Source: Myxococcota bacterium
GTDB taxonomy: Bacteria; Myxococcota_A; Bradymonadia; UBA7976; UBA1532
Direction of reading: 5' to 3'
Length of the DNA stretch: 64,000 nt
Assembly (NCBI GenBank): GCA_963169045.1
Contig: CAUJDF010000029.1
Coordinates: 124,001-188,000, forward strand
The translations under genes were made by a program, and so were the position numbers. Shown one piece after another: positions 29,056 through 50,637 of this stretch. The number at the start of each line of letters is the position of its first letter. The stretch's first letter is position 1. The notes beneath the pieces are model-generated. The model had not been told where the DNA came from, made no database searches, and was given only the letters and a program-made list of their open reading frames with translations.

Positions 29056-29349
29056 ATGCGGCGTGCGTGGGGATCGATCGTGCTGCTGGCGGCCGGGTCC
29101 GCGGCGGCGCAGGACGCGGGCGACGCGGCGGCGCTGAAGGCCGACGTGCAGCGCCTGGTCGACGCGAAGTCGGTATGCATGTGCACGAGCGGCGAGTGGC
29201 AGCACGTCGCCGGGCGTCTGTTGAGTCAGGAGCAGGCGATCGGCGGCGAGACGCGCCTCAAGCTGCGCTGCGCGGTGAGCGCGTGGCGCGCGGACGGCAC
29301 GCCCGGCAGGGGCGCCAACTGCAGCGACTTCGTGGTGGTCGGACGCTGA
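29056..29349 (+). CDS. Small exported Cys-containing protein, unknown
   Basis: 97 residues with a clear signal peptide (MRRAWGSIVLLAAGSAAAQ, cleavage after AAA or AAQ). The mature ~78 residues have four cysteines (VCMCTSG, LRCAVS, GANCSDF) and no recognised family. A strong ribosome site GGGAGGTGAG precedes the ATG. The stop overlaps the MAPEG start by 1 bp, suggesting coupling. A TATGCA box sits 27 bp before the start. Confidence 0.75.
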   Translation: MRRAWGSIVLLAAGSAAAQDAGDAAALKADVQRLVDAKSVCMCTSGEWQHVAGRLLSQEQAIGGETRLKLRCAVSAWRADGTPGRGANCSDFVVVGR

Positions 29350-29789
29350 TGCGCGGCAACCCGGCCTTCGTCATCTGGTGCGCCGCCGTGGTGGTGCTCC
29401 TCGTGAAGATGCATCTCAACTCGCTCGGCCAGCTCCTGTCGCGCATGCGCACTCAGGTGTGGGGCAGCCCCGAGGACGCGCAGCGCTTCGGCAAGCCCGG
29501 CGCCACCGCCGGCGTCGACACCGGGCTCGGTGATCGCGCCGCGCGCTGCTGGCGCAACGACCTCGAGAACATCCCGATGTTCCTGATCCTCGGCCTCGCG
29601 TACGTGCTGGCGGGCGCGCCGGCGACGTGGGCCGGCGCGGCGTTCGGCGCGTTCACGCTCGCGCGCATCGGCCACACCGTCTTCTATCTGCGCGCCATGC
29701 AGCCGTGGCGCACGATCGCCTACCACCTGGGGAACGCCGCGCAGGTGGTGGTCATCGCCCACCTCGTCGTCCTGCTGTCTCAGGGCTGA
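29349..29789 (+). CDS. MAPEG family membrane protein
   Basis: 146 residues with four predicted helices. RCWRNDLENIPMFLILGLAY and ARIGHTVFYLRAMQPWRTI match the MAPEG family (microsomal glutathione transferase, prostaglandin E synthase type), where Arg residues bind a thiol cofactor. Eukaryotic members use glutathione. Bacterial members are little studied; here a bacillithiol operon lies about 12 kb away, so a different thiol could be considered (inference). The 3' end overlaps the convergent PLD-fusion gene by 10 bp. Confidence 0.85.
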   Translation: MRGNPAFVIWCAAVVVLLVKMHLNSLGQLLSRMRTQVWGSPEDAQRFGKPGATAGVDTGLGDRAARCWRNDLENIPMFLILGLAYVLAGAPATWAGAAFGAFTLARIGHTVFYLRAMQPWRTIAYHLGNAAQVVVIAHLVVLLSQG

Positions 29790-33799: not shown

Positions 33800-33916
33800 G
33801 GCCGCGGAGTCTGCGCCCGGCGGGGCGCGGCTGGCAAGCGCGCGCGTCGCGCCGCGTCGCGACGAGACCCATCGTGGCGGCGGGCGGACCGGTGGTAGCC
33901 TCGCGGCGAGGTGGCG

Positions 33917-35980
33917 ATGCGTACATGGATCTGGATGTTGGCGGCGCTCGTCGCCGCGTGTGACGACGGCGGCGGCGCGGCGGACGAAGGCGGCGCGCGG
34001 GACGCCGCGCCCCGGCCCGACGCGGCCGCGAGCCGCGACGGCGGCGCCGCCGACGCTGCGGCGCCGGACGCGCGCCTCTTCCTCGACGGCGCGCCGCCGC
34101 CCGACGCCGGGATCTTCGTCGACGGCGGCCCGCTCTGTCCGGAGCGCGCCCGCGCCTGTCTCGCCGCGGGCACGCCGGCGTTCCGGGAGTGCCGGAGCGG
34201 CCGGTGGGTCGTCGATGCGTGTCCGCAGGGCGAGCTCTGCGAGGGCGACGAGGCCGCCTGCCTGCCCGATCCGGCCACGTGCGCCGCCGGCACCGTCCTG
34301 TGCCTCGACGGCGTGCCCACCGAGTGCGCCGGCGGCGTCTACCGGCCGCTCGAGGCGTGCCCCGAAGGCACGCGGTGCTCGGGCGCGGGCCTCTGCCGCT
34401 CGCCGGAGTGCGCCGTCGCCGAGGACCGCCGCAGCTACCTCGGCTGCGACTACGTGGCCGCCGCGCTGCCCAACCTCGCCTACGCGCCGCTCGGCGCCAC
34501 CCCGTCCTCGCCGCTCGGCGTCGTGATCGCCAACCCCGATCCGGACCACGCGGTGAAGGTCTGGGCGCGCGACGCCGCGGGCGCCCTCGCGCCGCTCGTG
34601 GGGGAGGTGACCGTCGCGCCGCCGCTCACCGCCGCCGGCTCCACGCCGGTCACCGTCCGCAGCGAGCTGCGCGACGCCGCCGGCGCCACCGTCGCCGAGG
34701 GGTTCGAGCAGGCCGACGGCCTCGACGTCCCGCCGCGGGGCATGGCGATCCTGCTCTTCCGCAACCACGGCTACACCGAGCAGAGCAAGGTCGCCGCCGA
34801 GGCCTGGCGCATCAGCACCGACGCCCCCGTCGTGGCGACGCAGTTCGGTCCGTACTGCTGCAACTACAGCTTCACGAACGACGCCTCGCTCCTGCTGCCG
34901 ACGTCGGCGCTCGGCACGGACCACCGCGTGATCGGGGTGCCGTCGTGGTCCTTCGGGCGCGGCGAGGACGGCGGCAGCGCCATCCCCGCGACGATCAGCG
35001 TCATCGCGCCGCAGGGCGGGACCGACGTCACCATCACGCTGCCGCCGGGCGCGCAGGTCCGTACGGACGCTGCCGGCCGGCTGCGCCGCAACGGCGACGT
35101 CGTGACGATGACGCTCGGGGGCGGCGAGCTCGTCCACCTGCTCAGCGAGGCCCCGCCGGCCGTCCGGGAGGGCGCGGCGCCCGGCATCGATCTCAGCGGC
35201 GCGCGCGTCGAGAGCAATCGCCCCGTCGCCGTCTTCAGCGGCCACCTCTGCACCTACTACCCGCAGGACCAGGAGGCCTGCGACCACCTCGAGGAGCAGG
35301 TCTCGCCCGTCGACACCTGGGGCAACGAGCTCGTCCTCGCCCCGGTCGTCCTGCGCGCCGCCGACCCGGCGCGATCCCACGAGGCCGTCTACTGGAAGAT
35401 CCTCGCCGCGCGGGACGCCACCACCGTCCGCTTCAGCGTGCCGCTCAACGCCATCGGCCCACGCCCGCCCGGATCGCCGGGCGTCACCGACTGCCGCGTC
35501 CTCGCCGTGGACGGGCAGACGCTCACGCTCGACGCCGGCGAGTCCTGCGAGCTCGGCTCGGCAGAGGCCGTCGGCGTGAGCGCCGACGGGCCCATCTCGG
35601 CCATGGGCATCGTCAGCGGCCAGGCCTCGACCGGCGCGCTCGCGACGTTCGGCGCCCACGCCGGCGATCCGTCGATCTTCCAGGCGCCGCCCGTGCGCCA
35701 GCTCCGCAGCAGCTACATGTTCCTGGCGCCGACGACCTACCACACCGACACGGTGACGATCTTCGCGCCCCCGGACGCCACGTTCGAGATCGACGGCGAG
35801 GTGCGCGAGCTCGTGCGGCGCGCGCCGGTGCCCGGGACGAACTGGGTGTACGGCCACCTCGGCATCGAGGACGGCCCGCACTTCATCGCCGGCTCGCGGC
35901 CGTTCGGGATGGTGGTGTTCGCCTACGACGACTACGTCAGCTATGCGTTCACCGGCGGGCTCAACCTGGACAAGCGGTGA
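33917..35980 (+). CDS. Lipoprotein with IgGFc-binding-protein-type domain
   Basis: 687 residues. Lipobox LVAAC gives Cys15, followed by a Gly/Asp/Ala/Pro linker to about residue 75, then a Cys-rich part of ~90 residues (CPERARAC, CRSGRWVVDACPQGELC, CPEGTRCSGAGLC). From about 165 to the end it resembles the N-terminal domain of IgGFc-binding proteins: ATQFGPYCCNYSFTNDASLLLP, NRPVAVFSGHLCTYYP, and the closing FAYDDYVSYAFTGGLNL. In myxobacteria such proteins are common surface molecules of unknown role. Either ATG 33917 (with GAGG before it) or a leaderless GTG at 33911, 15 nt behind a TAGCCT box, may be the start. The HAD gene overlaps its stop. Confidence 0.85.
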   Translation: MRTWIWMLAALVAACDDGGGAADEGGARDAAPRPDAAASRDGGAADAAAPDARLFLDGAPPPDAGIFVDGGPLCPERARACLAAGTPAFRECRSGRWVVDACPQGELCEGDEAACLPDPATCAAGTVLCLDGVPTECAGGVYRPLEACPEGTRCSGAGLCRSPECAVAEDRRSYLGCDYVAAALPNLAYAPLGATPSSPLGVVIANPDPDHAVKVWARDAAGALAPLVGEVTVAPPLTAAGSTPVTVRSELRDAAGATVAEGFEQADGLDVPPRGMAILLFRNHGYTEQSKVAAEAWRISTDAPVVATQFGPYCCNYSFTNDASLLLPTSALGTDHRVIGVPSWSFGRGEDGGSAIPATISVIAPQGGTDVTITLPPGAQVRTDAAGRLRRNGDVVTMTLGGGELVHLLSEAPPAVREGAAPGIDLSGARVESNRPVAVFSGHLCTYYPQDQEACDHLEEQVSPVDTWGNELVLAPVVLRAADPARSHEAVYWKILAARDATTVRFSVPLNAIGPRPPGSPGVTDCRVLAVDGQTLTLDAGESCELGSAEAVGVSADGPISAMGIVSGQASTGALATFGAHAGDPSIFQAPPVRQLRSSYMFLAPTTYHTDTVTIFAPPDATFEIDGEVRELVRRAPVPGTNWVYGHLGIEDGPHFIAGSRPFGMVVFAYDDYVSYAFTGGLNLDKR

Positions 35981-37047: not shown

Positions 37048-37896
37048 GTGAAGAATCTCGTTCTCGGAGCCGTGCTCTCCGGCCTGATGGCCGCCTCCGC
37101 CACGACCGTCTCGGCGCAGCAGCTCGAGCTGCCCGCGCCGAGCCCCGCCGCCTCGGTGTCGCAGCGCGTCGGCCTGACCGACATCTCGGTCGAGTACTCG
37201 AGCCCGGCGGTGAAGGGCCGCAAGATCTGGGGCGACCTCGTGCCCTGGGACAAGCCGTGGCGCAGCGGCGCCAACGCGGCGACGAAGATCACGTTCGGCC
37301 GCGACGTGAACTTCGGCGGCAAGAACGTGCCCGCCGGCAGCTACGCCATCGTCTCGATCCCGACGCAGAAGGGCTGGACCGTCGCCCTGAACAAGGACAC
37401 CACGATCTTCGGCGGCGGCAAGGCGTACGACCAGAAGCAGGACCTCGTGCGCGTCCCGGCGACGACCGCCGAGATCCCGGCGCGCGAGCGCATGATCTTC
37501 GTCTTCTCGAACACGACCGACGACGCGACCTCGCTCGACCTCGAGTGGGAGAAGCTGCGCGTCTCGGTGCCGATCAAGGTCGACACGGCGGCGCAGGCGC
37601 AGACCAACATCAAGAAGACGCTCGACAACGCCTGGCGCAACCACGCCCAGGCCGCGCGCTACGTGGCCGAAAAGAAGGACTTCGACACGGCGCTGAAGTA
37701 CATCGACACCTCCATCGGCATCCAGTCGACCTGGTACAACAACTGGATCAAGGCCGACATCCTGGCGAAGAAGGGCAACACGGCCGAGGCGCGCAAGTTC
37801 GCGCAGACGGCGTGGGACCTCGGCTCGAAGGACCCGAACTTCTTCTTCAAGGACCAGGTGCAGAAGGCGCTGGCGGACTGGAAGGACGCCAAGTAA
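37048..37896 (+). CDS. DUF2911 domain protein, exported
   Basis: 282 residues. A signal peptide (MKNLVLGAVLSGLMAASATTVSAQ) predicts export. The core, about residues 30-180, matches DUF2911 as I recall it: ISVEYSSPAVKGRKIWGDLVPWDKPWR, then FGGKNVPAGSYAIVSIP. The remaining ~100 residues are helical with a TPR-like character (RYVAEKKDFDTALKYIDTSI, then AKKGNTAEARKFAQTAWDLG). Function unknown; the family is best known from Bacteroidota. The GTG at 37048 is the only start that keeps the signal peptide, and GAGGA lies just before it. The kinase gene starts 10 bp after its stop. Less extremely GC-rich codon choice (many AAG, GAC, AAC) fits a well-expressed protein. Confidence 0.85.
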   Translation: MKNLVLGAVLSGLMAASATTVSAQQLELPAPSPAASVSQRVGLTDISVEYSSPAVKGRKIWGDLVPWDKPWRSGANAATKITFGRDVNFGGKNVPAGSYAIVSIPTQKGWTVALNKDTTIFGGGKAYDQKQDLVRVPATTAEIPARERMIFVFSNTTDDATSLDLEWEKLRVSVPIKVDTAAQAQTNIKKTLDNAWRNHAQAARYVAEKKDFDTALKYIDTSIGIQSTWYNNWIKADILAKKGNTAEARKFAQTAWDLGSKDPNFFFKDQVQKALADWKDAK

Positions 37897-37906
37897 TCGA
37901 GATGAC

Positions 37907-40900
37907 GTGGCGATCGACGGCACGAGAGCGGACGCAGCGGCGACGGCGGCCACCGTCGAGGCCGCGCCGTCCCCGGTCGTCGTCGATCGCTACGAGCTCG
38001 GGCCCCTCCTCGGCAGCGGCGGCTTCGGCCAGGTCCACGTCGCCCGCGATCGCCTGACCGGCGAGCGCGTCGCCCTCAAGCGCATCGTCGGCGAGTCGCC
38101 GCGCGTCCGCCGCGAGGTCTGGGCGCTGCGCCTCCTGCGCCTCCCGGGCGTCGTCCGGCTCCTCGACGCCGGCGTCGACGGCGGCCACGCCTGGCTCGTG
38201 ACCGAGCTGGTGCAGGGATCGCCCTTTCCGGGCCGCCCGGGACGCCAGCCCTGGACGTCGATCGCCGAGGCCACGCTGCAGCTCCTCGAGGTCCTCGGGC
38301 GCGTGCACGCCGCCGGCGTCGTCCACCGGGATCTGAAGCCCGCGAACGTCCTCGTGACGCCCGACGGGCGCCCGATCCTGCTCGACTTCGGCCTCGCCAT
38401 CGACGCCTCGCCCGGGGAGCGCCTCACCGGCGAAGGGCTGGTGCTCGGGACGCCCGACTACCTCGCCCCGGAGCAGGTGCTCGGCGAGCCGCCGACGGTG
38501 CGCACCGATCTCTACGCGCTCGGGGTGATGGTGTACGAGGCGCTGGCCGGCGTCCGGCCGTTCGCCGGCGGCGACCTGCGCGGGATGCTGTACGCGCGCC
38601 TCGTGCGGCCGCCGTCGCCGCTGCGCGAGCACGACGTCGACGCGCCCGAGCGGGTGGTCGAGGTGGTCGAGGCGCTGCTCGCCCGCGATCCGGCGCAGCG
38701 GCCCGCCTCGGCGCGGGAGGTGGCGCGGCGCCTGCGCGAGGGGGGGCGGACGGACGTCGCCGCGCGGCCCTGGCTGCCGAGGCTCGGCGACGCCGGGCCG
38801 CTCGAGGCGCTCGTCGACCGCGGACGCGCGGGGGCGCCCGCCGATGTCGTCGGTCCGCCGGGATCCGGGCGCACCCGCCTGCTCCGCGACGCCGTGGACG
38901 TCTGGCGCGCCGAAGGGCTCGAGGTGTCGTGGCTGTCGCCGTCCGCGCGCGCCTTCGGCAGCCTCGGCCAGCTCGTCGCCGGGCTCGACCAGCTCTGGGA
39001 CCTCGCGCTCGAAGGCGCGCGCGACTGGGTCGACGCGCGCCTCGCTTCGCAGCTCGCCGCCGGTCGGGTGATCGTGGCGGACGGGCTCGAGTCGCTCGAC
39101 GCCGAGACGCGCGACGCGCTGCGGCGCGTCCGGGAGCGTGGCGCGGTCGTCCGCGCGCCACCGCCCGACGCGGCGCTCGCGCCCGCGATCGCCCTCGAGC
39201 CGCTGACGGCCGAGGCGCTGCGTCCGCTGTTCGCCGGTCCGGAGCGGCTGTTCCACCTGCCGCAGGACGCCGCGCGCGTGCTGTTCGCGCGCACGGCCGG
39301 GCGGCCCGCCGCCGTCGTGGAGGAGCTCGAGGCCTGGCTCCGCGCCGGGCTCGCGCGCCGCGACGGCGACCTGCTGGCGGTCGATCGCGCGTCGATCGAC
39401 CGGCTGCGGGGCGGGCTCCGCCTGCGCGCCGAGGGGGACGCGCCCGTCGTCCCCGCGCGGACGCTGCGCCCCGACCAGCACGCCGCCCTCCGCTGGCTCG
39501 CCCTCGCCGGCGAGCACGCCCGGCCCTCGCTGCTCGCCGAGCTCCAGGGCGTCCCGCTGTGGAAGGCGGAGGCGCTGGTCGGCGAGCTGGCGACGCTGGG
39601 CCTGCTCGCGGTCACGGCGAGTGGGCGCGTCGACGTCGTCGCCGAGCCTGCCGGGATCGACGGCGCCGACGAGCGGCGCGCCGCGCACGCCCGCCTCGCG
39701 GAGAGGCTGCCGCGCGGCACGCCCGCCCGGCTCTATCACGTCGCCGCCGCCGGGCGCGCGGGCGAGGTCGCGGGCGAGGCGCTCCGGGTGGCCGAGGCCG
39801 CCCGGCGGCGCGGCGAGGTCGGCCCGGCCATGGCGGCGCTCGCCGAGGGGCTGCGCTGGGCGCGCGTCGGTCCCGCCGGCGACGACGCCGACGAGGGCGG
39901 GCTGCTGCGCGCCTGGACGGTCCTCGCCTGGCGCGACGCGAGCCCCGCGACCCTCGAGCGCGTCCGCTTCGAGTGCGCGCGGGCGCGGCACGCAGCGCCG
40001 GAGGGCGAGGCGCTCGCGCGCCTGCTGCAGGCCGCCGTCGCCACCCTCACCGCCGACGGGGCGACGGCCTTTGCGCTGGCCGAGGCCGTGCCGGCGTTCG
40101 CCGACGGGCGGCTCGAGCTCGTGCGGCAGGACGTCCGGATGCGCGCGGCGCGCCTGTGCCCCCCGGCGGTCGACGAGCGGGCGCTGCACGAGGCGCTGGC
40201 CTGGGCGCAGGCGATCGAGGCGCCCGACGTCCGGTGGCACGCGACGCGGTGGCAGGCCGGCCACGAGTATCGCCGCGGCCGGTTCGCCGCGTCCGCCGCG
40301 CTGCACGAGCGCGCCGCCGCGGAGGCCGACGGACCGCTCGACCGCCTCTCGGCGCTCACGGGCGCGGCTTCCGCCTGGCTCGAGGCCTTCGCACCGGAGC
40401 AAGCGCTCGCGCTCGCGGTCGAAGCGGGTGGCCTGGCCGAGGCGCTGCGGCACCCCCACTTCGAGGCCCGGTGCGCGTGGATCGCCCGCGCGGCGCAGTA
40501 CCGTCTCCGTCGCCGGCCGTCGCCGGATCTCGACCTCGTCGAGGCCGTGACGCGGCTCGGCGAGGCGGGCGTCGAGTCGCTCGTCCTGCTCACCGAGGCG
40601 GCGATCGCGAGGGACGCGGGCGACGCGGCGACGACCGTCCGCCTCGCCCGGCGCGCCGCGGAGCTCTTCCGGCGCCGCGGCATCGCCTCCGCCGCCGCGC
40701 TCTCCCGGGCGCTCGCGCTGGCCGCGGGCGACGCCGACCGCGCCGATCTCGACGACGTCGTGGCCCGGATCGCGCCGTCGGCGGAGCGCGGCGTCGGGAT
40801 TCAGATCGCCGGTCTCCTGGCGGGCGTGACGGGGCTCGGCGACGCGCTGCGCCGTCTGGATCCCATGCCGCTCGCCGCCGAGGTGCCGCGGGCGGCATGG

Positions 40901-40972
40901 TCCCATCGCCTCGATGTCATGAGCGTCGAGGAGGCGCTTGCGTGCCTCGGCGCGATCTGCGATCGCTCGTGA
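37907..40972 (+). CDS. Ser/Thr protein kinase fused to an ATPase/TPR-like region
   Basis: 1021 residues. The kinase domain covers about 29-285: glycine loop LLGSGGFGQVHVA, Lys58 in ALKRI, catalytic HRDLKPANV near 140, DFGLA and PDYLAPEQ. Activity is expected. Next comes an AAA/STAND-like region opening with GPPGSGRTRLL near 316; the usual Walker A Lys is Arg, while a Walker B-like VIVADGLESLD is present. The C-terminal ~400 residues are Ala/Arg-rich helices resembling TPR arrays. Such kinase-ATPase-TPR chains are common in myxobacteria. Start is a GTG at 37907 with a weak GAGAT before it. No transmembrane helix was seen, so it is likely cytosolic. It follows DUF2911 by 10 bp and precedes the small protein by 41 bp. 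Confidence 0.9.
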   Translation: MAIDGTRADAAATAATVEAAPSPVVVDRYELGPLLGSGGFGQVHVARDRLTGERVALKRIVGESPRVRREVWALRLLRLPGVVRLLDAGVDGGHAWLVTELVQGSPFPGRPGRQPWTSIAEATLQLLEVLGRVHAAGVVHRDLKPANVLVTPDGRPILLDFGLAIDASPGERLTGEGLVLGTPDYLAPEQVLGEPPTVRTDLYALGVMVYEALAGVRPFAGGDLRGMLYARLVRPPSPLREHDVDAPERVVEVVEALLARDPAQRPASAREVARRLREGGRTDVAARPWLPRLGDAGPLEALVDRGRAGAPADVVGPPGSGRTRLLRDAVDVWRAEGLEVSWLSPSARAFGSLGQLVAGLDQLWDLALEGARDWVDARLASQLAAGRVIVADGLESLDAETRDALRRVRERGAVVRAPPPDAALAPAIALEPLTAEALRPLFAGPERLFHLPQDAARVLFARTAGRPAAVVEELEAWLRAGLARRDGDLLAVDRASIDRLRGGLRLRAEGDAPVVPARTLRPDQHAALRWLALAGEHARPSLLAELQGVPLWKAEALVGELATLGLLAVTASGRVDVVAEPAGIDGADERRAAHARLAERLPRGTPARLYHVAAAGRAGEVAGEALRVAEAARRRGEVGPAMAALAEGLRWARVGPAGDDADEGGLLRAWTVLAWRDASPATLERVRFECARARHAAPEGEALARLLQAAVATLTADGATAFALAEAVPAFADGRLELVRQDVRMRAARLCPPAVDERALHEALAWAQAIEAPDVRWHATRWQAGHEYRRGRFAASAALHERAAAEADGPLDRLSALTGAASAWLEAFAPEQALALAVEAGGLAEALRHPHFEARCAWIARAAQYRLRRRPSPDLDLVEAVTRLGEAGVESLVLLTEAAIARDAGDAATTVRLARRAAELFRRRGIASAAALSRALALAAGDADRADLDDVVARIAPSAERGVGIQIAGLLAGVTGLGDALRRLDPMPLAAEVPRAAWSHRLDVMSVEEALACLGAICDRS

Positions 40973-41427: not shown

Positions 41428-42564
41428 TCACAGCAGGCGCCGATAGAGCGCCTCGTAGCGGTCGATCGCGGGCTCGAGCCGGAAACGCTCGAGCGTGCGC
41501 GCCCGCGCCCTCGCCCCGAAGGCCCGGCGCCGCGCCGGGTCCCGCAGCAGCTCGAGCACCCGCGCCGACATCGCCGCGACGTCGCCCACCGGCGCCAGGA
41601 AGCCCGTCTCGCCTTCGTCGACGACCTCGGGCAGCCCGCCCACGTCGCTCGCCACCACCGGCACGCCGCAGCTCAGCGCCTCGAGCGCGGCGAGGCCGAA
41701 GCTCTCGGTCTCGCTCGGCAACAGGAAGACGTCGCTGGCGGCGAGCAGGTCCGCGAAGGCCTCCTGCTTGCCGAGGAAGACGACGCGGTCGTGCAGGCCG
41801 AGCTCGCGCAGGCGGCGCTCCGCCGGCGATCGCTCGGGGCCGTCGCCGACGAGCACGAGCCGGCACGGCACCTCGCGGTTCACGGCGGCGAAGATCGCGA
41901 CCACGTCGCCGATGCGCTTCACCGGACGGAAGTTCGAGACGTGGAACAGCACCGGCTCGTCGCCGAGACGCGGCAGGTAGCAGCGCAGGCGCGCGCGGTC
42001 GCCGGCGGGCGCGTACGCGTCGGTGTCGACGAAGTTGGGGATGACCTCGATCGGGAAGTCGGTCGGGATGTCGAAGTTGGCCCACGTCGCGCGGCGCAGG
42101 AACTCGGAGGGGGCGGTGACCGCGTCGCTCTTCAGGATCGAGAAGCGCGTGATCGGCAGGTGGCACGGATCGGCGCCGACGAGCGTGATGTCGGTGCCGT
42201 GCAGCGTGGTGACGATGCGCGGCGCGCGCGGTCCGAGGACCTCGCGCGCCATCCAGGCGGCGGTGGCGTGCGGCACGGCGTAGTGGACGTGGAGGACGTC
42301 GAGGCGCTCGTACGTCGCGACCTCGATCATCTTCGAGGCGAGCGCGATGGCGTAGGGGCTCGAGTCCTGCAGGACCGGGTAGTCGCTCTCGGTCACCTCG
42401 TGGAAGAGCACGTTCTCGTCGGCGCCGTGGTGCAGCCGCACCGGCAGGTCGCGGGCGATGAAGTGCACGCGGTGGCCGCGGCGCGCCATCGCCAGGCCGA
42501 TCTCGGTGGCGATGAGGCCGCTGCCGCCGAACGTCGGGAAGCAGGTGATGCCGAGCGAGATCAC
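41428..42564 (-). CDS. bshA: N-acetyl-alpha-D-glucosaminyl L-malate synthase BshA
   Basis: 378-residue GT4 glycosyltransferase that joins UDP-GlcNAc to L-malate, the first step of bacillithiol synthesis. It has the BshA-type N-terminus GITCFPTFGGSGLIATEIG, the substrate loops VLHVHYAVPHA and LHGTDITLVG, the nucleotide-binding VSNFRPVKRI, and the GT4 signature ETESFGLAALEALSCGVP. Length is typical. The start is GTG at 42564, overlapping the bshB stop by 4 bp (GTGA). Last gene of the bshC-bshB-bshA unit. Substrate assignment relies on the family match plus both partner genes. Confidence 0.93.
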   Translation of the reverse strand: MISLGITCFPTFGGSGLIATEIGLAMARRGHRVHFIARDLPVRLHHGADENVLFHEVTESDYPVLQDSSPYAIALASKMIEVATYERLDVLHVHYAVPHATAAWMAREVLGPRAPRIVTTLHGTDITLVGADPCHLPITRFSILKSDAVTAPSEFLRRATWANFDIPTDFPIEVIPNFVDTDAYAPAGDRARLRCYLPRLGDEPVLFHVSNFRPVKRIGDVVAIFAAVNREVPCRLVLVGDGPERSPAERRLRELGLHDRVVFLGKQEAFADLLAASDVFLLPSETESFGLAALEALSCGVPVVASDVGGLPEVVDEGETGFLAPVGDVAAMSARVLELLRDPARRRAFGARARARTLERFRLEPAIDRYEALYRRLL

Positions 42565-43310
42565 CGGCGCTCCGGGAAGAACAAGGGCTTGCCTCCGAAC
42601 TGGTTGCGGCGGAAGTGGTCGAGCGGATCGGCGAGGCCGAGCGTCTCGCGGACGACGTACGGCTCGCCGAACGCGACGCCGATGCGGGCGCCGTAGAAGG
42701 CGTCGCGCGCCTCGAGCGAGGAGAGGGACAGCGCGGAGCCGACGAGCGTCGGCGGCGCGTCGGGACGCGCGGCGACCTGGCTGCCGTAGCAGCGCACGGC
42801 GGCCATCTTGCGCGCGTGCACGGCGCTGACGTCGACGACGAGGCTCGGCTCGGCGAGATGGCGCATCGGGTAGAACAGCGCCTGGCGCGGCGTGTGCGGC
42901 TCGCCGTCGCCGTACTTGCGCAGGCCGGCGAGGAAGAGCGCCCGCGTCACGAGGGCGCTCGCCGCCTCGTGGTCCGGGTGGCGCTCGTGCCAGTAGGGCG
43001 CGACGACGATCTCGGGGCGCAGGCGCCGCAGGGCGTCGACGACGAGGGCCGCCGCGCGGTCGTCGTCGGCGCGGAGTCCGGCGTCGGGCAGGCCGAGGTT
43101 CTCGCGGTGGACGAGGCCCAGCTCGCGGGAGGCGGCTTCGGTCTCGGCGGCGCGCGTCTCGGGCGTGCCCCGGCTCGCCATTTCGCCGCGCGTGAGGTCG
43201 ACGACGCCGACGCGGTGCCCGCGCTCGCCGCCGGCCGCGAGCAGGCCGCCGCAGAAGAGCTCGACGTCGTCGGGGTGCGGGCCGAAGGCCACGTAGTCGA
43301 GGTGTGTCAT
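42561..43310 (-). CDS. bshB: N-acetylglucosaminyl-malate deacetylase BshB (PIG-L family)
   Basis: 249-residue zinc deacetylase that removes acetate from GlcNAc-malate. Zinc ligands are in GPHPDDVELFCGG (His12, Asp15 region) and in HERHPDHEAAS. LTRGEMASRGTPETRAAE and RENLGLPDAG are BshB1-type segments. Length and lack of signal peptide fit a cytosolic enzyme. It lies 43 bp behind bshC and overlaps bshA by 4 bp. No clear Shine-Dalgarno sequence before the ATG. Confidence 0.92.
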   Translation of the reverse strand: MTHLDYVAFGPHPDDVELFCGGLLAAGGERGHRVGVVDLTRGEMASRGTPETRAAETEAASRELGLVHRENLGLPDAGLRADDDRAAALVVDALRRLRPEIVVAPYWHERHPDHEAASALVTRALFLAGLRKYGDGEPHTPRQALFYPMRHLAEPSLVVDVSAVHARKMAAVRCYGSQVAARPDAPPTLVGSALSLSSLEARDAFYGARIGVAFGEPYVVRETLGLADPLDHFRRNQFGGKPLFFPERR

Positions 43311-43353
43311 GACGGTCGTGCAACCTGCGCGCGCCCGCGAGGGATTCCGTGCC

Positions 43354-44961
43354 TCACGGACACAGGTCGCGCAGCGCGCCGTCGAAGGGGGCGCAGGCCT
43401 CGAGCACGAGACGCGCGAAGCCGCGCGTGCCCCAGCGCGCCGCGTAGTAGGGCAGGCCGTGGACGCGCTCCTGCGGGACGCCGTCCGGTGCGAGATACGC
43501 GCGCAGGCGGTCGAGGCGCTCCACCGTCACCTGGTCCCGCTGCGCGAGCGCGCGGGCGTACTTCGCGACGAGCTTCGCGACCTGGTCGCGGACCGACTCT
43601 TCGGTGCGCGCCGCCGTCTTCGCCAGGTTGGGGTCGAGGGCCGCCATCTGCCCGGAGAGACGAGCGAATTCGGGCGCGAGGGCGGCGACGAGGCGCGCCT
43701 CGGCCACGTCGGGCGGGTCGAAGCCTTCGTGGCGCGCGAGGCGCTGCAGAAGCGCGTCGCGCGGCGCGGCGAGGTCGTCGGGCGCGAGGCCGAGCCGGTC
43801 GAGCAGGGCGCGCGAGCGGTCGTCGACGACGCGGAAGCGGGCGCGCGGGACGACGAGCGGCATCGGCAGGCCGAAGTGCGCGTACACACGCGGGAGCTGC
43901 GCCCAATACGCGATCTCGCCCGGCCCGCCGACGTAGGCCGCCGTCGGCAGCCACGTGTCCTGCAGCAGCGGGCGCAGCAGCGCCGAGGTCGTGAAGCGCG
44001 CCGGATCGCGCTCGAGCCAGCCGCGCAGCTCGGCGTGGGTGACGTGCAGGCCGGCGACCGTGAAACCGTCGGGCGCGGGGTCGAGGCGGTAGCGCGCGCC
44101 CGTTCGGGGGAGGCTCGCCGCCGCAGAGTCTGCGGCTGCGCCCGTGGCTTCGCCGCCGTCGGGCGCGAAGAAGCAGAGCGGCGAGCCCGGGCGCACGTGC
44201 ACCTGCTCGCCGAAGCCGGCGCCGGCGAGCGCCGCGCCCTGGTCCTGCAGCGCGCCGGCGATGGCGGCGGCCTCGTCGATCGCGCGGCGGTGCACGGGGG
44301 CGGCGAGCGCCGGCATCGTGCGCGGGTCGACGATCAGCAGCTCGGGAAAGACCGCGACGAGCAGCCTCGCGAAGGCGTCCGCGAGCGTCGCGCCCGGCGC
44401 GTAGGCGCGCTCGAGCAGGCCGAGGTGCTCGGCGGCGTGCGGCTGGGCGCCGAGCTCGGCGCGCAGGGCGGTCAGCGCCGCCGTTGCGTCGACGCGCACC
44501 TCGGAGACCGGCACGCGCGAGTCGGCGGGCAGGCCGAGGCCGACGCGCAGGAGCCCGCCCGTGCCGCGCGGCACGAACGTGTGGTCGATCTCGGGCAGGT
44601 CGTGGTCCTCGGTCTGCATCCAGAAGACCGGCACGCACGCGCGCCCCGTCTCCGCCTCGAGCGCGCGCGCGGCGGCGATGGCGGCGGCGGCCTTGTAGAG
44701 CGTGAAGAGCGGACCGAGGAAGAGGCCCATCTGCTGGCCCGTCACCGCCGCGACGGTGCCCGGACGCGCGAGGCGCTCGAGCAGGTGCGGCGCGTGCGCG
44801 TTGCGCGCGACGAGCGCGTCGATCAGCGCCGGCGCGACCGGGCGCGCGGCCGCTTCGACCGCGGCACGGCGCGCCGCCGGGTCGCGGAAGCGGTCGGGGA
44901 GGAGGGCCAGGGCGCGCGGCTCCCGGGCGAGCCACGCCGGCGTGAAGGCGGAGGACGACAT
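43354..44961 (-). CDS. bshC: Bacillithiol synthase BshC (cysteine-adding)
   Basis: 535 residues, the normal length. It adds cysteine to glucosaminyl-malate to finish bacillithiol. Diagnostic blocks are TGQQMGLFLGPLFTLYKAAAAI near residues 70-90, VPVFWMQTEDHDLPEIDH near 110, and PGEIAYWAQLPRVYAHFGLPMP near 350, then a coiled-coil-like helical stretch and ERVHGLPYYAARWG at the end. The protein is cytosolic. No Shine-Dalgarno sequence; TGGTATCAGT lies 14 nt before the ATG, so the operon transcript may be leaderless. Divergent from the MopE-like lipoprotein gene by 90 bp. Confidence 0.94.
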   Translation of the reverse strand: MSSSAFTPAWLAREPRALALLPDRFRDPAARRAAVEAAARPVAPALIDALVARNAHAPHLLERLARPGTVAAVTGQQMGLFLGPLFTLYKAAAAIAAARALEAETGRACVPVFWMQTEDHDLPEIDHTFVPRGTGGLLRVGLGLPADSRVPVSEVRVDATAALTALRAELGAQPHAAEHLGLLERAYAPGATLADAFARLLVAVFPELLIVDPRTMPALAAPVHRRAIDEAAAIAGALQDQGAALAGAGFGEQVHVRPGSPLCFFAPDGGEATGAAADSAAASLPRTGARYRLDPAPDGFTVAGLHVTHAELRGWLERDPARFTTSALLRPLLQDTWLPTAAYVGGPGEIAYWAQLPRVYAHFGLPMPLVVPRARFRVVDDRSRALLDRLGLAPDDLAAPRDALLQRLARHEGFDPPDVAEARLVAALAPEFARLSGQMAALDPNLAKTAARTEESVRDQVAKLVAKYARALAQRDQVTVERLDRLRAYLAPDGVPQERVHGLPYYAARWGTRGFARLVLEACAPFDGALRDLCP

Positions 44962-45051: not shown

Positions 45052-46878
45052 ATGGCACGAGGTGGGTGGGTTCGCGCGTCGGCGCTCCTCGCGGCGCTCT
45101 CCGGGTGCACCGTGGATGTCGCCGACCAGTGCGGCGGCGCCGGCGATTGCGCCGCGGGCGAGGTCTGCGAAAGAGGGACGTGCGTCGCCGGGGCCGACGC
45201 CGCGGCGCGCGACGGCGCGACGGATCGGGACGTCGCCCCGGCCGACGCGGCGCCCCCGCGCGACGCGGCGCCGCCGGCCGACGCGGCAGCGCCGGCGGAT
45301 GCCACGCCTCCCGCCGACGGCGCGGTCCCCGACGCCTCGGTCCCCGACGCCTCGGTCCCCGACGGCGCGGTCCCCGACGCGATCGCTCCGTGCTCGAGCC
45401 CTGAAGTCTGCAACGGCGTCGACGACGACTGCGACGGTCCGATCGACGAGGGCGTCCAGCGCACGTTCCACCGCGACCTCGACCAGGACGGCTTCGGCGA
45501 TCCCATGTTGTTCATGGCCGGCTGCGAGGCGCCCGACGGCTGGATCGTCAACAGCCGCGACTGCGATGACCGCAACGCCGCCGTCTTTCCCGGCGCGCCG
45601 GAGATCTGTGACGGCCGCGACCAGAGCTGCGACGGCAACCCCGACGAGGGCGCCGACGCCCAGTGCGCGCGGCCGAACGCGGCCGGCCTCTGCGTCGGGC
45701 GCTGCACGTACGAGTGTCAGGCGGGCTTCATCGACGACAACCTCGCGGGCGACGACGGCTGCGAGCGCGGCTGCGGCCCGCCGGCGCCCGGCGTCGTCGT
45801 CAGCGACCTGCCGGCGCCGGCCGCCGGCGGCCACCCCTCGGTCGCGGTCGCCGAGGACGGGCGCTGGGCCGTCGCCCGGGCCGGCCCCGACGACGGCGAG
45901 AACGTGAGCAACCTGCGCCTGTATACCGACGGGGCGATGCAGCACATCGGCGCGGACGACGGCGACTACGCCGATCCGGTCGTCGTGGCGACGCCCGTCG
46001 GCTGGATGGTCGCCGCGCGGCGCACGGACGAGGTGGACGACGCGCCCGCCGGCCTGGAGGTGATGCTCGTCGCCGGCGAGGACGGGGTGCAGGTGGCCGC
46101 CGAGCGTGGGCTCGCCGTGACGCTGCTCGACGCGGCCACGCGGCGCGACGGCGACGTCAACCACCTCTTCGTCGCCTTCGAGCACGAGAGCGGCAACGGC
46201 GCCCGCAGCCTCGGCTGGCTCGAGTACTTCGTGAACGACCACTTCCGGGAGCTGCGCCCGCTCCTCCCCGCGCGCGTGCTGCCGCCGCCGTCGGGCTTCC
46301 ACGTCGACTCGCGCCCTGCCCTGATCGCGCGTGCCGACGGCTTCGGCATCGTGTCGTTGTTCTCGGGCAACGAGGGCGTCCAGGTGCTCTATCAGGCGCT
46401 GGACGCGCAGGGCAGGTCGGCGGGGACGGCGACCTGGACGCCCTTCCAGGCGCCGGCGGCGCGCCTGGCCGCCGCCTGGCGCCCGGGGACGCGGGACGCG
46501 GCGGTGATGGTGCCGCGGCAGAACGGCGCGGCGCTCGACTTCGTACCGCTGGCCCTCGGCGCGCCGGCCTTCGGGCAGGCGAACACCATCGACGACGTCC
46601 CGATCGACGAGTTCCGCGAGCCGTCGATCGCGCCGACGCGCGATGGCTTCCTGGCGACGTACTCGCGCCGGGAGGGGGCCGCGCCGCGGCGGTCGGCGGG
46701 CGCCCTGGCGCGGCCGGCGGCGCTGCTCGCGCAAGAGGTGCGGGTCTTGCCGGCCGTGCCGACGGAGGCCACGCGGATGGACGTCGCCGGCGCCGGCGGG
46801 GTGGTGCGCGCCGTGTGGTACGAGCCGGCGCCGCGCGGCGGTTTCGACGTGCGGACGGCCGAGCTGCCCTGCAACTGA
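45052..46878 (+). CDS. Lipoprotein with MopE-like metal-binding motifs
   Basis: 608 residues. Lipobox LAALSGC gives Cys19. A short Cys motif (CGGAGDCAAGEVCERGTC) precedes an Asp/Ala/Pro linker (to about residue 118) built on DNA repeats. Residues about 120-205 carry MopE-like units: CNGVDDDCDGPIDEG, DLDQDGFGDP, DCDDRNAAVFPGAPEICDG and CDGNPDEG, which suggest metal (calcium or copper) binding. The ~370-residue C-terminal part looks like a beta-propeller or similar all-beta fold without catalytic motif. Probably surface exposed. TAGCCT lies 13 nt before the ATG, with GTGACC 18 bp further up; no Shine-Dalgarno sequence. Confidence 0.85.
   Translation: MARGGWVRASALLAALSGCTVDVADQCGGAGDCAAGEVCERGTCVAGADAAARDGATDRDVAPADAAPPRDAAPPADAAAPADATPPADGAVPDASVPDASVPDGAVPDAIAPCSSPEVCNGVDDDCDGPIDEGVQRTFHRDLDQDGFGDPMLFMAGCEAPDGWIVNSRDCDDRNAAVFPGAPEICDGRDQSCDGNPDEGADAQCARPNAAGLCVGRCTYECQAGFIDDNLAGDDGCERGCGPPAPGVVVSDLPAPAAGGHPSVAVAEDGRWAVARAGPDDGENVSNLRLYTDGAMQHIGADDGDYADPVVVATPVGWMVAARRTDEVDDAPAGLEVMLVAGEDGVQVAAERGLAVTLLDAATRRDGDVNHLFVAFEHESGNGARSLGWLEYFVNDHFRELRPLLPARVLPPPSGFHVDSRPALIARADGFGIVSLFSGNEGVQVLYQALDAQGRSAGTATWTPFQAPAARLAAAWRPGTRDAAVMVPRQNGAALDFVPLALGAPAFGQANTIDDVPIDEFREPSIAPTRDGFLATYSRREGAAPRRSAGALARPAALLAQEVRVLPAVPTEATRMDVAGAGGVVRAVWYEPAPRGGFDVRTAELPCN
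45316..45375 (+). repeat. Four 15-bp tandem repeats in the lipoprotein linker
   Basis: Four units, alternating GACGGCGCGGTCCCC and GACGCCTCGGTCCCC (pattern A-B-B-A), encode Asp-Gly/Ala-Ala/Ser-Val-Pro pentapeptides. Confidence 0.9.
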
Positions 46879-46947: not shown

Positions 46948-46954
46948 CGAGGTC

Positions 46955-48016
46955 ATGCGTGCCTCGCTCGTGCTCGTCATCGCGATCGCGCTCGCCGGTT
47001 GCGGCGACGCCACGCTCGCCTCCGGCGACGGTCCAGACCGGGCGGCCGACGCGGCGACGCTCGACGTCGGCACGCCCGACCCCGACGCCTCGCCGCCCGA
47101 CACGGCGGCGCCCGACCCCGACGCGGACGCCTCCCCGCCCGATCCGGACGTCTCGCCGCCCGATCCGGACGCGTCGCCGCCCGATCCGGACGCCGCCGCG
47201 CCGGACGCGACCCCGCCCGAGCCCGCGCCCCCCGATCCTGCGCCGCCCGAGCCCGCCCCGCCCGCCGACGACTGCCCGCGCGTCCGCGTGAGCGGCACCG
47301 GCGACGACGGCCTGAACGTGCGCCCCGATCCGTCGACGGCCCGACCGCCCGTCGGCCACCTCGCCGAGGGCGCCGTCGCCGCGGTCACCGGCGTGGTCGA
47401 GGGCGAGGCGATCCGCGGCGACACGACGTGGTTCGCGATCGAGCGCGGGGACCTCGCCGGCTTCGTCAGCGGCGTCTTCGTCGCCTGCCTGCCCCCGGGC
47501 GGCCCGGACGACGACGAGTTCCTGCTGCCCCTCGCGTGCGGCAGTCGCGTCCGCATCAGCCAGGGCAACGACGGCGCCTACAGCCACAACGGCCGCTCGC
47601 GCTTCGCCTTCGACTTCTCGATCGGCCTCGACACGCCGCTGCTCGCCATGCGCGCCGGCCGCGTCGCCTACCGGCGCGGCGACGTGCGCCCCGGCGACCG
47701 CTGCTACTCCGGTGGCGGCCCCGATTGCGCCGCCGAGGTGAACTACGTCGTCGTCGAGCACGCCGACGGCACGCAGACGCAGTACGCGCACATGAACCGC
47801 GTCGACGTCGATCGCGACGAGCGCGTCGAGCGCGGCCAGCACCTCGGCCTCTCCGGCGGGACGGGCTACTCCACCGGACCGCACGCCCACGTCGCCCGCC
47901 AGCGCCCGTGCGGCGGCCCGTTCTGCGAGAGCATTCCGCTGAGCTTCGCCGACGTTCCCGGCGACGGCGTCCCCGCCACCGGCGACGTGGTGGTCTCCGC
48001 CAACGGCTGCCCCTGA
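46955..48016 (+). CDS. Lipoprotein with SH3b and M23 (LytM) peptidase domains
   Basis: 353 residues. Lipobox IALAGC gives Cys16. A Pro/Asp linker to about residue 108 includes 7-residue repeats. Residues about 110-180 form a bacterial SH3 domain (DDGLNVRPDPSTARPPVGHL, then FVSGVFVACL). From about 190 an M23/LytM zinc peptidase follows: His211 and Asp220 in HNGRSRFAFDF, YAHM, and His310/His312 in GPHAHVARQR. The metal set looks complete, so a cell-wall hydrolase anchored to a membrane is likely. The start has no properly spaced ribosome site (GAGG is only 2 nt away). Confidence 0.9.
   Translation: MRASLVLVIAIALAGCGDATLASGDGPDRAADAATLDVGTPDPDASPPDTAAPDPDADASPPDPDVSPPDPDASPPDPDAAAPDATPPEPAPPDPAPPEPAPPADDCPRVRVSGTGDDGLNVRPDPSTARPPVGHLAEGAVAAVTGVVEGEAIRGDTTWFAIERGDLAGFVSGVFVACLPPGGPDDDEFLLPLACGSRVRISQGNDGAYSHNGRSRFAFDFSIGLDTPLLAMRAGRVAYRRGDVRPGDRCYSGGGPDCAAEVNYVVVEHADGTQTQYAHMNRVDVDRDERVERGQHLGLSGGTGYSTGPHAHVARQRPCGGPFCESIPLSFADVPGDGVPATGDVVVSANGCP
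47131..47193 (+). repeat. Three 21-bp tandem repeats in the M23 lipoprotein linker
   Basis: Units with core CCGCCCGATCCGGACG repeat every 21 bp, encoding Ser-Pro-Pro-Asp-Pro-Asp-Ala/Val heptapeptides. Confidence 0.85.
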
Positions 48017-48049: not shown

Positions 48050-50506
48050 ATGCGGAACCACCTCGCGATCCTGGCCATGTCGCTGGCCGCCGTCTTCTCG
48101 AGTCCCGTCCTCGCGCAGCCGCACGCCGGCGAGATCGCCGCGGGCATCCGCCGCCTCGGCACCGTCGGCAGCGTGCTCTACGTCGCCGCCCACCCCGACG
48201 ACGAGAACACACGTTTCCTGGCGTGGCTCGTGGGCGACCGCGGCCTGCGGGCCGGCTATCTGTCGCTGACGCGCGGCGACGGCGGGCAGAACCTGATCGG
48301 CACCGAGCAGGACGAGCTGCTCGGGCTCATCCGCACGCAGGAGCTGCTGGCGGCGCGCCGCATCGACGGCGCCGAACAGCTGTTCACGCGGGCGCGCGAC
48401 TTCGGCTACTCGAAGAGCGCCGAAGAGACGCTGAAGATCTGGGGTCGTGAACAGGTCCTCGGCGACGTGGTGCTCGCCATCCGGCGGTTCCGCCCCGACG
48501 TGATCGTGACCCGCTTCACGCCCGATCCGCCGAACCATGGCCACCACACGGCCTCGGCGGTCCTCGCCGAGGAGGCCTTCCGCCTCGCCGCCGATCCGAA
48601 GGCCTACCCCGAGCATGGGTTGCCGCCGTGGCAGGCCGACCGCCTGCTCCACAACGTCTCGACGTGGCGGCTGCCGAAGGACGCGGACATGTCCGCCTAC
48701 CTGAAGCAGGACGTGGGCAGCTACGACCCGCTGCGCGGCCGGTCGTGGGGCGAGGTGTCCGCCGAGAGCCGCAGCCAGCACAAGAGCCAGGGCTTCGGCG
48801 CGGCCGTCGACCGCGGTCCGCTGCTCGAGTACTTCGCGCCCGTCGCCGGCACGAAGCCGAAGAGCGCGCCGCTCGAGGGCCTCGATTTCGGCTGGACGCG
48901 CTTCGGCGCGGGTCACGTCGCGGCGGCCGTCGCCGAGGCCGAGAAGACCTACGACGCGCGCGCCCCGCACGCGAGCCTGCCGGCGCTGCTGAAGGTCCGC
49001 GCGGCAGTCGCGGCCCTGCCCGACGGAAATCCGTGGAAACACGTGAAGTTGCGCGAGGTCGACCGCCTGGTCGCCGCCTGCGCCGGGCTGTTCGCCGACG
49101 TGCGCGCCGCCCAGCCCGACGGCGTGCCCGGCGGCGAGGTTGCGCTCGCGCTGACCGCCATCGCCCGCTCGCCGGCGTCCATCCGGCTGGTGGAGGTCGC
49201 GCTGCCCGGCGGCGCGAAGCTCGAGGGCGCGGCCCTCACGACGAACACGCCCTGGATGGCGGAACAGAAGGTGACGCTGCCGGGGGACGCGCCCATCTCG
49301 ACGCCGTACTGGCTGCGAGAGCCGGCCGACGGCGGCCTGTACCACGTGTCGGATCGGGCGCTCGTCGGCCGCCCCGAGGGCGATCCGGCGCTGTCCGTGA
49401 CGTTCACCTTCGCGATCGGAGGCCAGCACATCGCCGTGACGCGCCCGGTGACGTTCGTGTGGGTCGACCCGGTGCGCGGCGAGCTGTCGCGGCTCTTCGA
49501 GGTGGCGCCGGCGGTCTCGGCGACGCTCGACCGCGAGGTCTTCATGTTCCCGAACGGCCGCCCGCAGGCGGTGTCGGTGACGCTCGCCGCCGGCAAGCCG
49601 GTGACGGGCACCGCGCGCCTCGAGCTGCCCGCCGGCTGGAAGAGCGCGCCGGCGTCGATGTCCTTCGCGCTCGACGCCCGCGGCGCCGAGCGCACGGTGA
49701 CGTTCACCGTCACGCCGACCGCGAACGCGTCGCGCGCGACCGTCCGCGCGGTGGTCGACGTCGAGGGCCGCAGCGAGTCGTGGCGCGTACGCACGGTGAG
49801 CTACGACCACATCCCGCCGCAGACCGTGCGGCAGCCCTCGACGGCGGCCCTCGTCCCCGTGGCGCTCGAGTCGCGCGTGCGCCGCATCGCCTACATCCCC
49901 GGCCCCGGGGACAAGGTGGCCGAGAGCCTCGCCGCCGTCGGCTACGACGTCACGATCCTGCCCGACGAGCGTCTCGCCGCCGAGAAGCTGGACCGCTTCG
50001 AGGCCATCGTGGTCGGCATCCGCGCGTTCAACGCCAACCCGCGCCTCACCGTCCACCGCGAGCGCCTGATGCAGTACGTGGAGCGCGGCGGCCGCCTGGT
50101 CGTGCAGTACAACACCAACAGCCGCGTCGGCCCGCTGGCGGTGCAGGTGGGCCCGTACCCGCTCGAGATCGGGCGCGAGCGCGTCACCGACGAGACGGCC
50201 GCCATCCGGCCCGTCGATCCGAAGGAGCCGCTGCTGAACGGTCCGAACCGGCTCGGCGTTGCCGACTTCGAGGGCTGGGTGCAGGAGCGCGGCCTCTACT
50301 TCGCGACGAAGTGGGACGAGAAGTACCGCCCGGTCTTCGCGATGGGCGACCCCGGCGAGAAGCCGCTCGAGGGGTCCACGCTCGTCGCGCGGCACGGCAA
50401 GGGCACCTTCGTCTACACGGGCCTCGCGTTCTTCCGGCAGCTGCCGGCCGGCGTGCCCGGCGCGTACCGTCTCATGGCCAACCTGCTGAACCTGAAGGCG
50501 AAATGA
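48050..50506 (+). CDS. Exported PIG-L family deacetylase with C-terminal GATase-like domain
   Basis: 818 residues with a signal peptide (MRNHLAILAMSLAAVFSSPVLAQ). Residues about 40-250 are a PIG-L/LmbE deacetylase: AAHPDDENTRF, LTRGDGGQNLIGTEQ and the second metal site in NHGHHTAS. The middle (about 350-590) is beta-rich. The C-terminal ~200 residues (YIPGPGDKVAESLAAVGYDVTIL, VVGIRAFN, YVERGGRLVVQYN) resemble a class I amidotransferase-like or ThuA-like fold. It probably deacetylates an amino sugar outside the inner membrane. TGGTATGGT lies 14 nt before the ATG with no Shine-Dalgarno sequence. The stop overlaps the small membrane protein start by 4 bp. Confidence 0.88.
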   Translation: MRNHLAILAMSLAAVFSSPVLAQPHAGEIAAGIRRLGTVGSVLYVAAHPDDENTRFLAWLVGDRGLRAGYLSLTRGDGGQNLIGTEQDELLGLIRTQELLAARRIDGAEQLFTRARDFGYSKSAEETLKIWGREQVLGDVVLAIRRFRPDVIVTRFTPDPPNHGHHTASAVLAEEAFRLAADPKAYPEHGLPPWQADRLLHNVSTWRLPKDADMSAYLKQDVGSYDPLRGRSWGEVSAESRSQHKSQGFGAAVDRGPLLEYFAPVAGTKPKSAPLEGLDFGWTRFGAGHVAAAVAEAEKTYDARAPHASLPALLKVRAAVAALPDGNPWKHVKLREVDRLVAACAGLFADVRAAQPDGVPGGEVALALTAIARSPASIRLVEVALPGGAKLEGAALTTNTPWMAEQKVTLPGDAPISTPYWLREPADGGLYHVSDRALVGRPEGDPALSVTFTFAIGGQHIAVTRPVTFVWVDPVRGELSRLFEVAPAVSATLDREVFMFPNGRPQAVSVTLAAGKPVTGTARLELPAGWKSAPASMSFALDARGAERTVTFTVTPTANASRATVRAVVDVEGRSESWRVRTVSYDHIPPQTVRQPSTAALVPVALESRVRRIAYIPGPGDKVAESLAAVGYDVTILPDERLAAEKLDRFEAIVVGIRAFNANPRLTVHRERLMQYVERGGRLVVQYNTNSRVGPLAVQVGPYPLEIGRERVTDETAAIRPVDPKEPLLNGPNRLGVADFEGWVQERGLYFATKWDEKYRPVFAMGDPGEKPLEGSTLVARHGKGTFVYTGLAFFRQLPAGVPGAYRLMANLLNLKAK

Positions 50507-50637
50507 GCGAAGAGCGGCCGGAGCTCGACGCGCGCCCGCCGCTGCTCGGGCGTTGGCGGAACATCTACCTCGCGGTGGTGGGGGTCCTGGTCCTCCAGCT
50601 CGTGATCTACACCGTGCTCACGAAGGTCTATTCGTGA
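50503..50637 (+). CDS. 44-residue single-helix membrane protein
   Basis: MSEERPELDARPPLLGRW is followed by one hydrophobic helix (IYLAVVGVLVLQLVIYTVL) and a 4-residue tail. It overlaps the PIG-L stop and the symporter start by 4 bp each, so its place between two coupled genes argues that it is translated. It may be a small accessory subunit of the symporter, or act with the exported deacetylase (inference). Confidence 0.75.
   Translation: MSEERPELDARPPLLGRWRNIYLAVVGVLVLQLVIYTVLTKVYS

Follow-up and report, generated by a model that had tools for sequence, protein, structure and literature searches.

Bacillithiol genes of a Myxococcota genome share a conserved block with the genes for a secreted PIG-L hydrolase and a symporter that may serve bacillithiol recovery outside the cytoplasm

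Bacillithiol (BSH) has been predicted to occur more widely among bacteria than any other thiol, and Hiras et al. (2018) predicted its presence in several phyla, including some Proteobacteria (PMC6282198). Inside other bacteria, Mca and Bca cleave the amide between cysteine and glucosamine (Cys-GlcN), freeing a glucosamine (GlcN) glycoside that can be reused (PMC10950700). The accessible sections of a 2025 paper place Myxococcota among the phyla with bshABC, most without NmbA (PMC12719100). The presence of BSH genes in Myxococcota has therefore been published already, and our results agree with it at the level of the phylum; what seems to be new here is the genomic context. Those sections count genomes, and they do not discuss partner genes, co-occurrence with glutathione or transfer of the block. 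In the open-licence literature, we found no paper on BSH catabolism or on the partner genes of the block. Here we describe the BSH locus in a 64,000-nucleotide stretch of a Myxococcota genome (contig CAUJDF010000029.1), which we call the window. Between positions 37048 and 52328 it holds a block consisting of a DUF2911 gene, bshA, bshB, bshC, a gene for a secreted PIG-L hydrolase and a gene for a sodium:solute symporter (SSF), and this block suggests an undescribed system for the breakdown and recovery of BSH outside the cytoplasm. Its conserved genes are the following.

37048 to 37896, plus strand: secreted DUF2911 protein with a signal peptide, a beta domain and TPR-like helices; a conserved partner (PF11138, 166.2 bits; predicted model; synteny)
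41428 to 42564, minus strand: bshA, N-acetylglucosamine (GlcNAc)-malate synthase, 378 amino acids, GTG start (TIGR03999; homologues PDB 2jjm and 5d00)
42561 to 43310, minus strand: bshB1, GlcNAc-malate deacetylase, 249 amino acids, signal peptide absent (TIGR04001; homologues 6p2t and TT1542)
43354 to 44961, minus strand: bshC, cysteine-adding enzyme, 535 amino acids (TIGR03998; homologue PDB 4wbd; tree)
48050 to 50506, plus strand: secreted PIG-L hydrolase, 818 amino acids, proposed to be an amidase of BSH or of a BSH conjugate (PF02585, 57.4 bits)
50628 to 52328, plus strand: SSF symporter, 566 amino acids, proposed importer of the sugar-malate product (PF00474, 126.7 bits)

The sequence-only reading of the window had described a complete pathway, encoded by closely spaced genes on one strand, and this description holds. 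The genes bshC, bshB and bshA are adjacent on the minus strand, which that reading had not specified, with a gap of 43 bp between the first two and an overlap of 4 bp between the last two, and the diagnostic motifs that had been quoted are all found: TGQQMGLFLGPLFTLYK in BshC, HPDD and HPDHE in BshB, and GGSG and LHGTD in BshA. The reading frames are unbroken and the catalytic and zinc motifs intact. In a search with the NCBIfam profiles, which for these enzymes are curated equivalog models, BshC scored 379.8 bits against TIGR03998 (cut-off, 265.8), BshB1 275.4 bits against TIGR04001 (cut-off, 182.5) and BshA 508 bits against TIGR03999 (cut-off, 273.7). The nearest solved structures are Bacillus subtilis BshC (4wbd), Thermus TT1542 and B. 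subtilis BshB (6p2t), and Bacillus BshA (2jjm and 5d00), respectively. The window genes would thus very probably support working BSH synthesis. Just beyond the coordinates of this operon (41428 to 44961) sit the three further conserved partner genes.

Compared with the BSH pathway of Bacillota, Deinococcota and Bacteroidota, the window shares the three enzyme families, all above the curated cut-offs and with intact motifs. It differs in that its genes are all contiguous and tightly packed, in that the host also has glutathione genes, and in the redox partners. The search for bacilliredoxins and Bdr that had been proposed came out negative: among 50 genomes of the phylum, BrxA/B (PF06491) gave no match and YpdA/Bdr (TIGR04018) none above the cut-off, the best score in the host being 88.6 bits against 339.9. 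These blanks would suit an operon that makes a related metabolite rather than BSH, or that is silent. We consider this highly improbable, as the three enzymes score above equivalog cut-offs with their motifs intact, and the PF06491 search was equally blank in the controls, genomes of Thermus and Deinobacterium, although these carry BshC.

A link between the PIG-L hydrolase and BSH comes from their distribution over 284 genomes of the host's phylum, a sample without Myxococcaceae (best rpoB DNA match to Myxococcus xanthus, 81%). When presence of PIG-L was defined as a match to the window protein with E<=1e-60, PIG-L and BshC were each found in 30 genomes and occurred together in 29 (Fisher p about 2e-37). 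The one genome with BshC only (G218) has a partial BshC match below the cut-off, and the one with PIG-L only (G129) carries bshA beside PIG-L on a contig of 3.3 kb. Ten families contain both genomes with and genomes without bsh genes, and PIG-L tracks bsh in each of them. BshB1, in comparison, scores above its cut-off in just 14 of 30 bsh-positive genomes; bshC and bshA without a bshB1 above the cut-off, whether adjacent or elsewhere, are found in G005, G016, G021, G050, G060, G198, G206, G265, G274 and others. BshC is therefore accompanied more regularly by the secreted PIG-L protein than by the classical deacetylase BshB. The PIG-L protein and the symporter in all likelihood belong functionally to the BSH locus.

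The same numbers could be explained if the secreted PIG-L protein replaced BshB in some members of the phylum, with GlcNAc-malate being deacetylated outside the cytoplasm and taken up again by the symporter, since PIG-L is present in nearly all of the bsh-positive genomes and BshB1 above the cut-off is missing from 16 of 30. Such a route requires export of the intermediate; the window and 13 other genomes hold both enzymes, and some of the genomes lacking BshB1 hold other PIG-L deacetylases below the cut-off. We regard this replacement as very unlikely.

The PIG-L protein consists of a signal peptide, an N-terminal zinc-binding PIG-L domain (AHPDDE, NHGHH), beta domains and a highly conserved C terminus. 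A signal-like N terminus was present in all 29 homologues inspected (L032 to L178), and in an alignment of 18 homologues the zinc ligands AHPDDE/HPDD and H..H were invariant or nearly so. The N-terminal part of the predicted structure (predicted local distance difference test score, 85.9) matches the fold of MshB and BshB. The best NCBIfam profile is that of Mca, which is matched weakly (38.6 bits; cut-off, 277), and the BshB2 profile gives 20.1 bits (cut-off, 195), so that neither curated cut-off is reached. Compared with Mca and Bca/BshB2, the window protein shares the zinc hydrolase domain and the proposed Cys-GlcN amide chemistry, but it adds a signal peptide, about 600 amino acids of C-terminal domains and a linked symporter. 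We give an about even chance to an action of PIG-L on the GlcN-malate amide of BSH or of a conjugate. The nearest solved relative of the symporter is 5nv9 (E = 4e-42, with a best stretch of about 295 residues), which we take to be the sialic acid transporter SiaT, and its other solved relatives include sugar and monocarboxylate symporters. For the DUF2911 protein, the fold search returned only TPR matches, pointing to no function.

A cycle can be drawn from these parts. The BshA-BshB-BshC route would make BSH (Cys-GlcN-malate) in the cytoplasm, and BSH or, more likely, its S-conjugates would leave the cytoplasm. The secreted PIG-L protein would then cut the Cys-GlcN amide outside the cytoplasm, a cleavage that in other bacteria Bca and Mca perform within the cell. 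The SSF symporter would presumably return GlcN-malate to the cytoplasm, and BshC would reload the recovered GlcN-malate with cysteine. By analogy with the known recycling enzymes, we propose this salvage cycle only tentatively, and in the exact form drawn here it is somewhat doubtful.

Searching the neighboring genes of the window against related loci showed how far the block is conserved. Twelve loci of Myxococcus, Pyxidicoccus and Corallococcus have the order SSF and PIG-L (leftward), bshC, bshB and bshA (rightward), and DUF2911 (leftward). The order and orientation in the window are the mirror image of this, with inserted genes. One of the twelve loci (L037) is filed under Comamonas sp. KCTC 72670; its locus is of the Myxococcaceae type and its BshC falls inside Myxococcaceae, so the record is probably misnamed or contaminated. 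The same partner genes recur in most bsh-positive genomes of the phylum, in several arrangements in which bshB is not always included, and SSF adjoins PIG-L in most of the loci. The genes lie on one strand in L163 (bshC-bshB-bshA-PIG-L-SSF) and in L164 (DUF2911-bshC-bshB-bshA-PIG-L-SSF). A small open reading frame also lies between DUF2911 and bshA in the window, beside the first of the inserted genes, which are the following.

37907 to 40972, plus strand: Ser/Thr protein kinase in the interval between DUF2911 and bshA, window only (PF00069; outside the conserved block of the relatives)
45052 to 46878, plus strand: MopE-motif lipoprotein in the interval between bshC and PIG-L, window only (PF11617; not there in Myxococcaceae)
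46952 to 48016, plus strand: M23 peptidase lipoprotein in the interval between bshC and PIG-L, window only (PF01551; not there in Myxococcaceae)

In the BshC tree, the window protein falls inside the Myxococcota BshC clade as sister to Myxococcaceae (support, 100/98), and the approximately unbiased (AU) test rejected a single clade for the host's own family (p = 3.7e-5). We know of no biochemically tested member of this clade. In the RpoB tree, on the other hand, the host joined the members of its own family (98/98). The partner proteins behave like BshC: the window protein groups with Myxococcaceae for PIG-L (Shimodaira-Hasegawa-like approximate likelihood ratio test [SH-aLRT], 94), for DUF2911 (SH-aLRT, 96) and, weakly, for SSF (SH-aLRT, 37), and the AU test rejected an own-family clade in each case (p = 2.7e-5, 8e-39 and 0.0098, respectively). 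As four proteins of the block thus group the window with Myxococcaceae, contrary to RpoB, the simplest reading is a joint transfer of the whole block between these lineages; an old duplication followed by loss is the alternative. The BshC phylogeny had been proposed as a means of placing the donor lineage, and it settles part of that question by identifying Myxococcaceae as the nearest relatives. A donor from Bacillota, Deinococcota or Bacteroidota is ruled out, because BshC groups with Myxococcota. In families f12 and f2 (L150 to L153; G005, G016, G026 and G165), a gap inside one long frame interrupts the matches to RpoB, suggesting an insertion in RpoB.

A block that moves horizontally carries its neighbors along, and this raises the question of whether the partner genes matter at all for BSH. 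The operon might be an ordinary one in which BSH is only a second redox buffer of the cytoplasm and PIG-L, SSF and DUF2911 are passengers of the block. The bshABC genes by themselves account for three genes, the block seems to have moved, and DUF2911, PIG-L and SSF exist as a module away from bsh in other phyla. But passengers should go missing just as often as bshB, which is not the case for PIG-L: among 30 genomes it tracks bshC in 29, despite rearrangements and in at least ten families, whereas bshB is kept in 14. This counts against the passengers, an explanation that we consider rather unlikely.

Relatives of the PIG-L protein outside the phylum may hint at a wider role of the family. Full-length homologues with about 32% identity and the same zinc motifs are encoded on 22 alphaproteobacterial plasmids. 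They differ from the window protein in that the signal peptide is absent in those aligned, and the surroundings also differ, having a catabolic look. Every plasmid cluster inspected contains a sugar ABC importer and an ArgH-like lyase next to PIG-L. Clusters with the relevant annotation also include a ROK regulator, most have a kinase of the PfkB or ROK type, and the Loktanella plasmid cluster additionally has nagB. Related clusters do without PIG-L, combining the lyase with a ROK kinase and nagB in Paroceanicella and with an SIS protein in Roseomonas. Plasmid-borne BshC was considered and rejected, as the plasmid search gave no match. Lyases of the ArgH superfamily act on malyl or succinyl groups and set fumarate free. 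Since such a lyase adjoins enzymes of glucosamine-6-phosphate metabolism, our guess is that the substrate of the plasmid clusters is GlcN-O-malate, the core of BSH. All six lyases aligned have the catalytic loop SSIMPQKRNP. The lyase scores above the ArgH cut-off, so its reassignment to a GlcN-malate lyase is our inference. At 12 loci (L215 to L223 and L225 to L227), the conserved cluster of PIG-L, lyase, importer, kinase and ROK regulator, to which nagB is added in some cases, looks catabolic for a glucosamine-malate compound such as BSH, in bacteria that use glutathione.

Many of the Myxococcota are predators, and the PIG-L protein might serve feeding, cleaving BSH or similar amino-sugar amides from prey while the symporter imports the product for BshC or for catabolism. 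A secreted enzyme with an importer suits scavenging, and the distant alphaproteobacterial relatives sit in an apparent uptake and catabolic cluster. Feeding, however, needs no strict tie to the predator's own bsh genes, and bsh-negative members of the phylum are without PIG-L. Digestion of prey is therefore an unlikely function.

Several observations weigh against a dedicated role of PIG-L and SSF in extracytoplasmic BSH turnover. Linkage and co-transfer can by themselves produce co-occurrence, and with BshB1 below the cut-off in half of the bsh-positive genomes PIG-L might act otherwise, even in deacetylation. The match to Mca lies far below its cut-off, and no exporter for BSH or its conjugates was identified within the block. 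Bacteria that use glutathione harbor the wider PIG-L family (about 32% identity), which means that PIG-L need not be specific for BSH. In other phyla, where the comparison covered bsh-positive genomes, PIG-L is present in some genomes of KSB1, Calditrichota and Acidobacteriota, with SSF adjoining in several, but several bsh-positive genomes are without PIG-L, and bsh genes adjoin it only once (bshA and bshB in the Acidobacteria locus L210). At six loci of KSB1, Calditrichota and one further bacterium (L199 to L201 and L204 to L206), the DUF2911-PIG-L-SSF module lies apart from bsh in bsh-positive genomes. Taking all of this together, we hold the explanation as a whole, a BSH locus with extracytoplasmic cleavage by PIG-L and recovery by SSF, to be evenly balanced between being right and wrong. 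A broader proposal, which we put forward as a possibility of rather low probability, is that the large PIG-L family would process BSH beyond the cytoplasm of its producers: in Myxococcota by extracytoplasmic salvage together with SSF and DUF2911, with a stricter tie to bshC and bshA than BshB has, and in glutathione-using Alphaproteobacteria through cytoplasmic members which, with the ArgH-like lyase, kinases and NagB, would form the first BSH catabolic operons.

The sequence-only reading had also suggested that the host uses BSH instead of, or beside, glutathione, and that gshA and gshB be sought in the rest of the genome. In the 9.0-Mb draft (109 contigs, 95.4% complete), we found GshB above both cut-offs (NF003573, 384.6 bits against 272; TIGR01380, 370.9 bits against 299.05) and a homologue of the plant-type glutamate-cysteine ligase, which is full-length and scores below the cut-off (TIGR01436, 401 bits against 463). 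The host thus probably makes glutathione too, so that BSH would be made beside it; BSH as a substitute for glutathione finds no support in this host, because GshB and a probable GshA are encoded. GshB is present in 27 of the 30 bsh-positive genomes of the sample and also in Myxococcus and Corallococcus genomes carrying the bsh operon. In only two bsh-positive genomes, both of one genus (G065 and G196; family f16, genus g60), neither GshB nor any GCS2-type ligase was found, and there BSH is likely to have truly replaced glutathione within the phylum. The MAPEG protein noticed at 29.3 kb does exist (29349 to 29789, plus strand; PF01124, 73.9 bits). The idea that it uses another thiol loses its basis if glutathione is, as is probable, made beside BSH, and the protein can be an ordinary glutathione user.

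Two other window genes deserve mention. Positions 23053 to 28590 (plus strand) encode a single acyl-CoA carboxylase-like protein of 1845 amino acids with biotin carboxylase, biotin carrier and carboxyltransferase domains, and positions 33911 to 35980 (plus strand) encode a protein with an IgGFc-binding domain (PF17517, 185.9 bits).

The breakdown, transport and recycling of BSH are almost unexplored outside Bacillota. The Myxococcota clearly exemplify bacteria that have the genes for both glutathione and BSH, and the plasmid clusters offer candidates for the catabolism of BSH by bacteria that are not themselves producers. As the block also occurs in laboratory myxobacteria, extracellular thiol cycling would be directly testable there.

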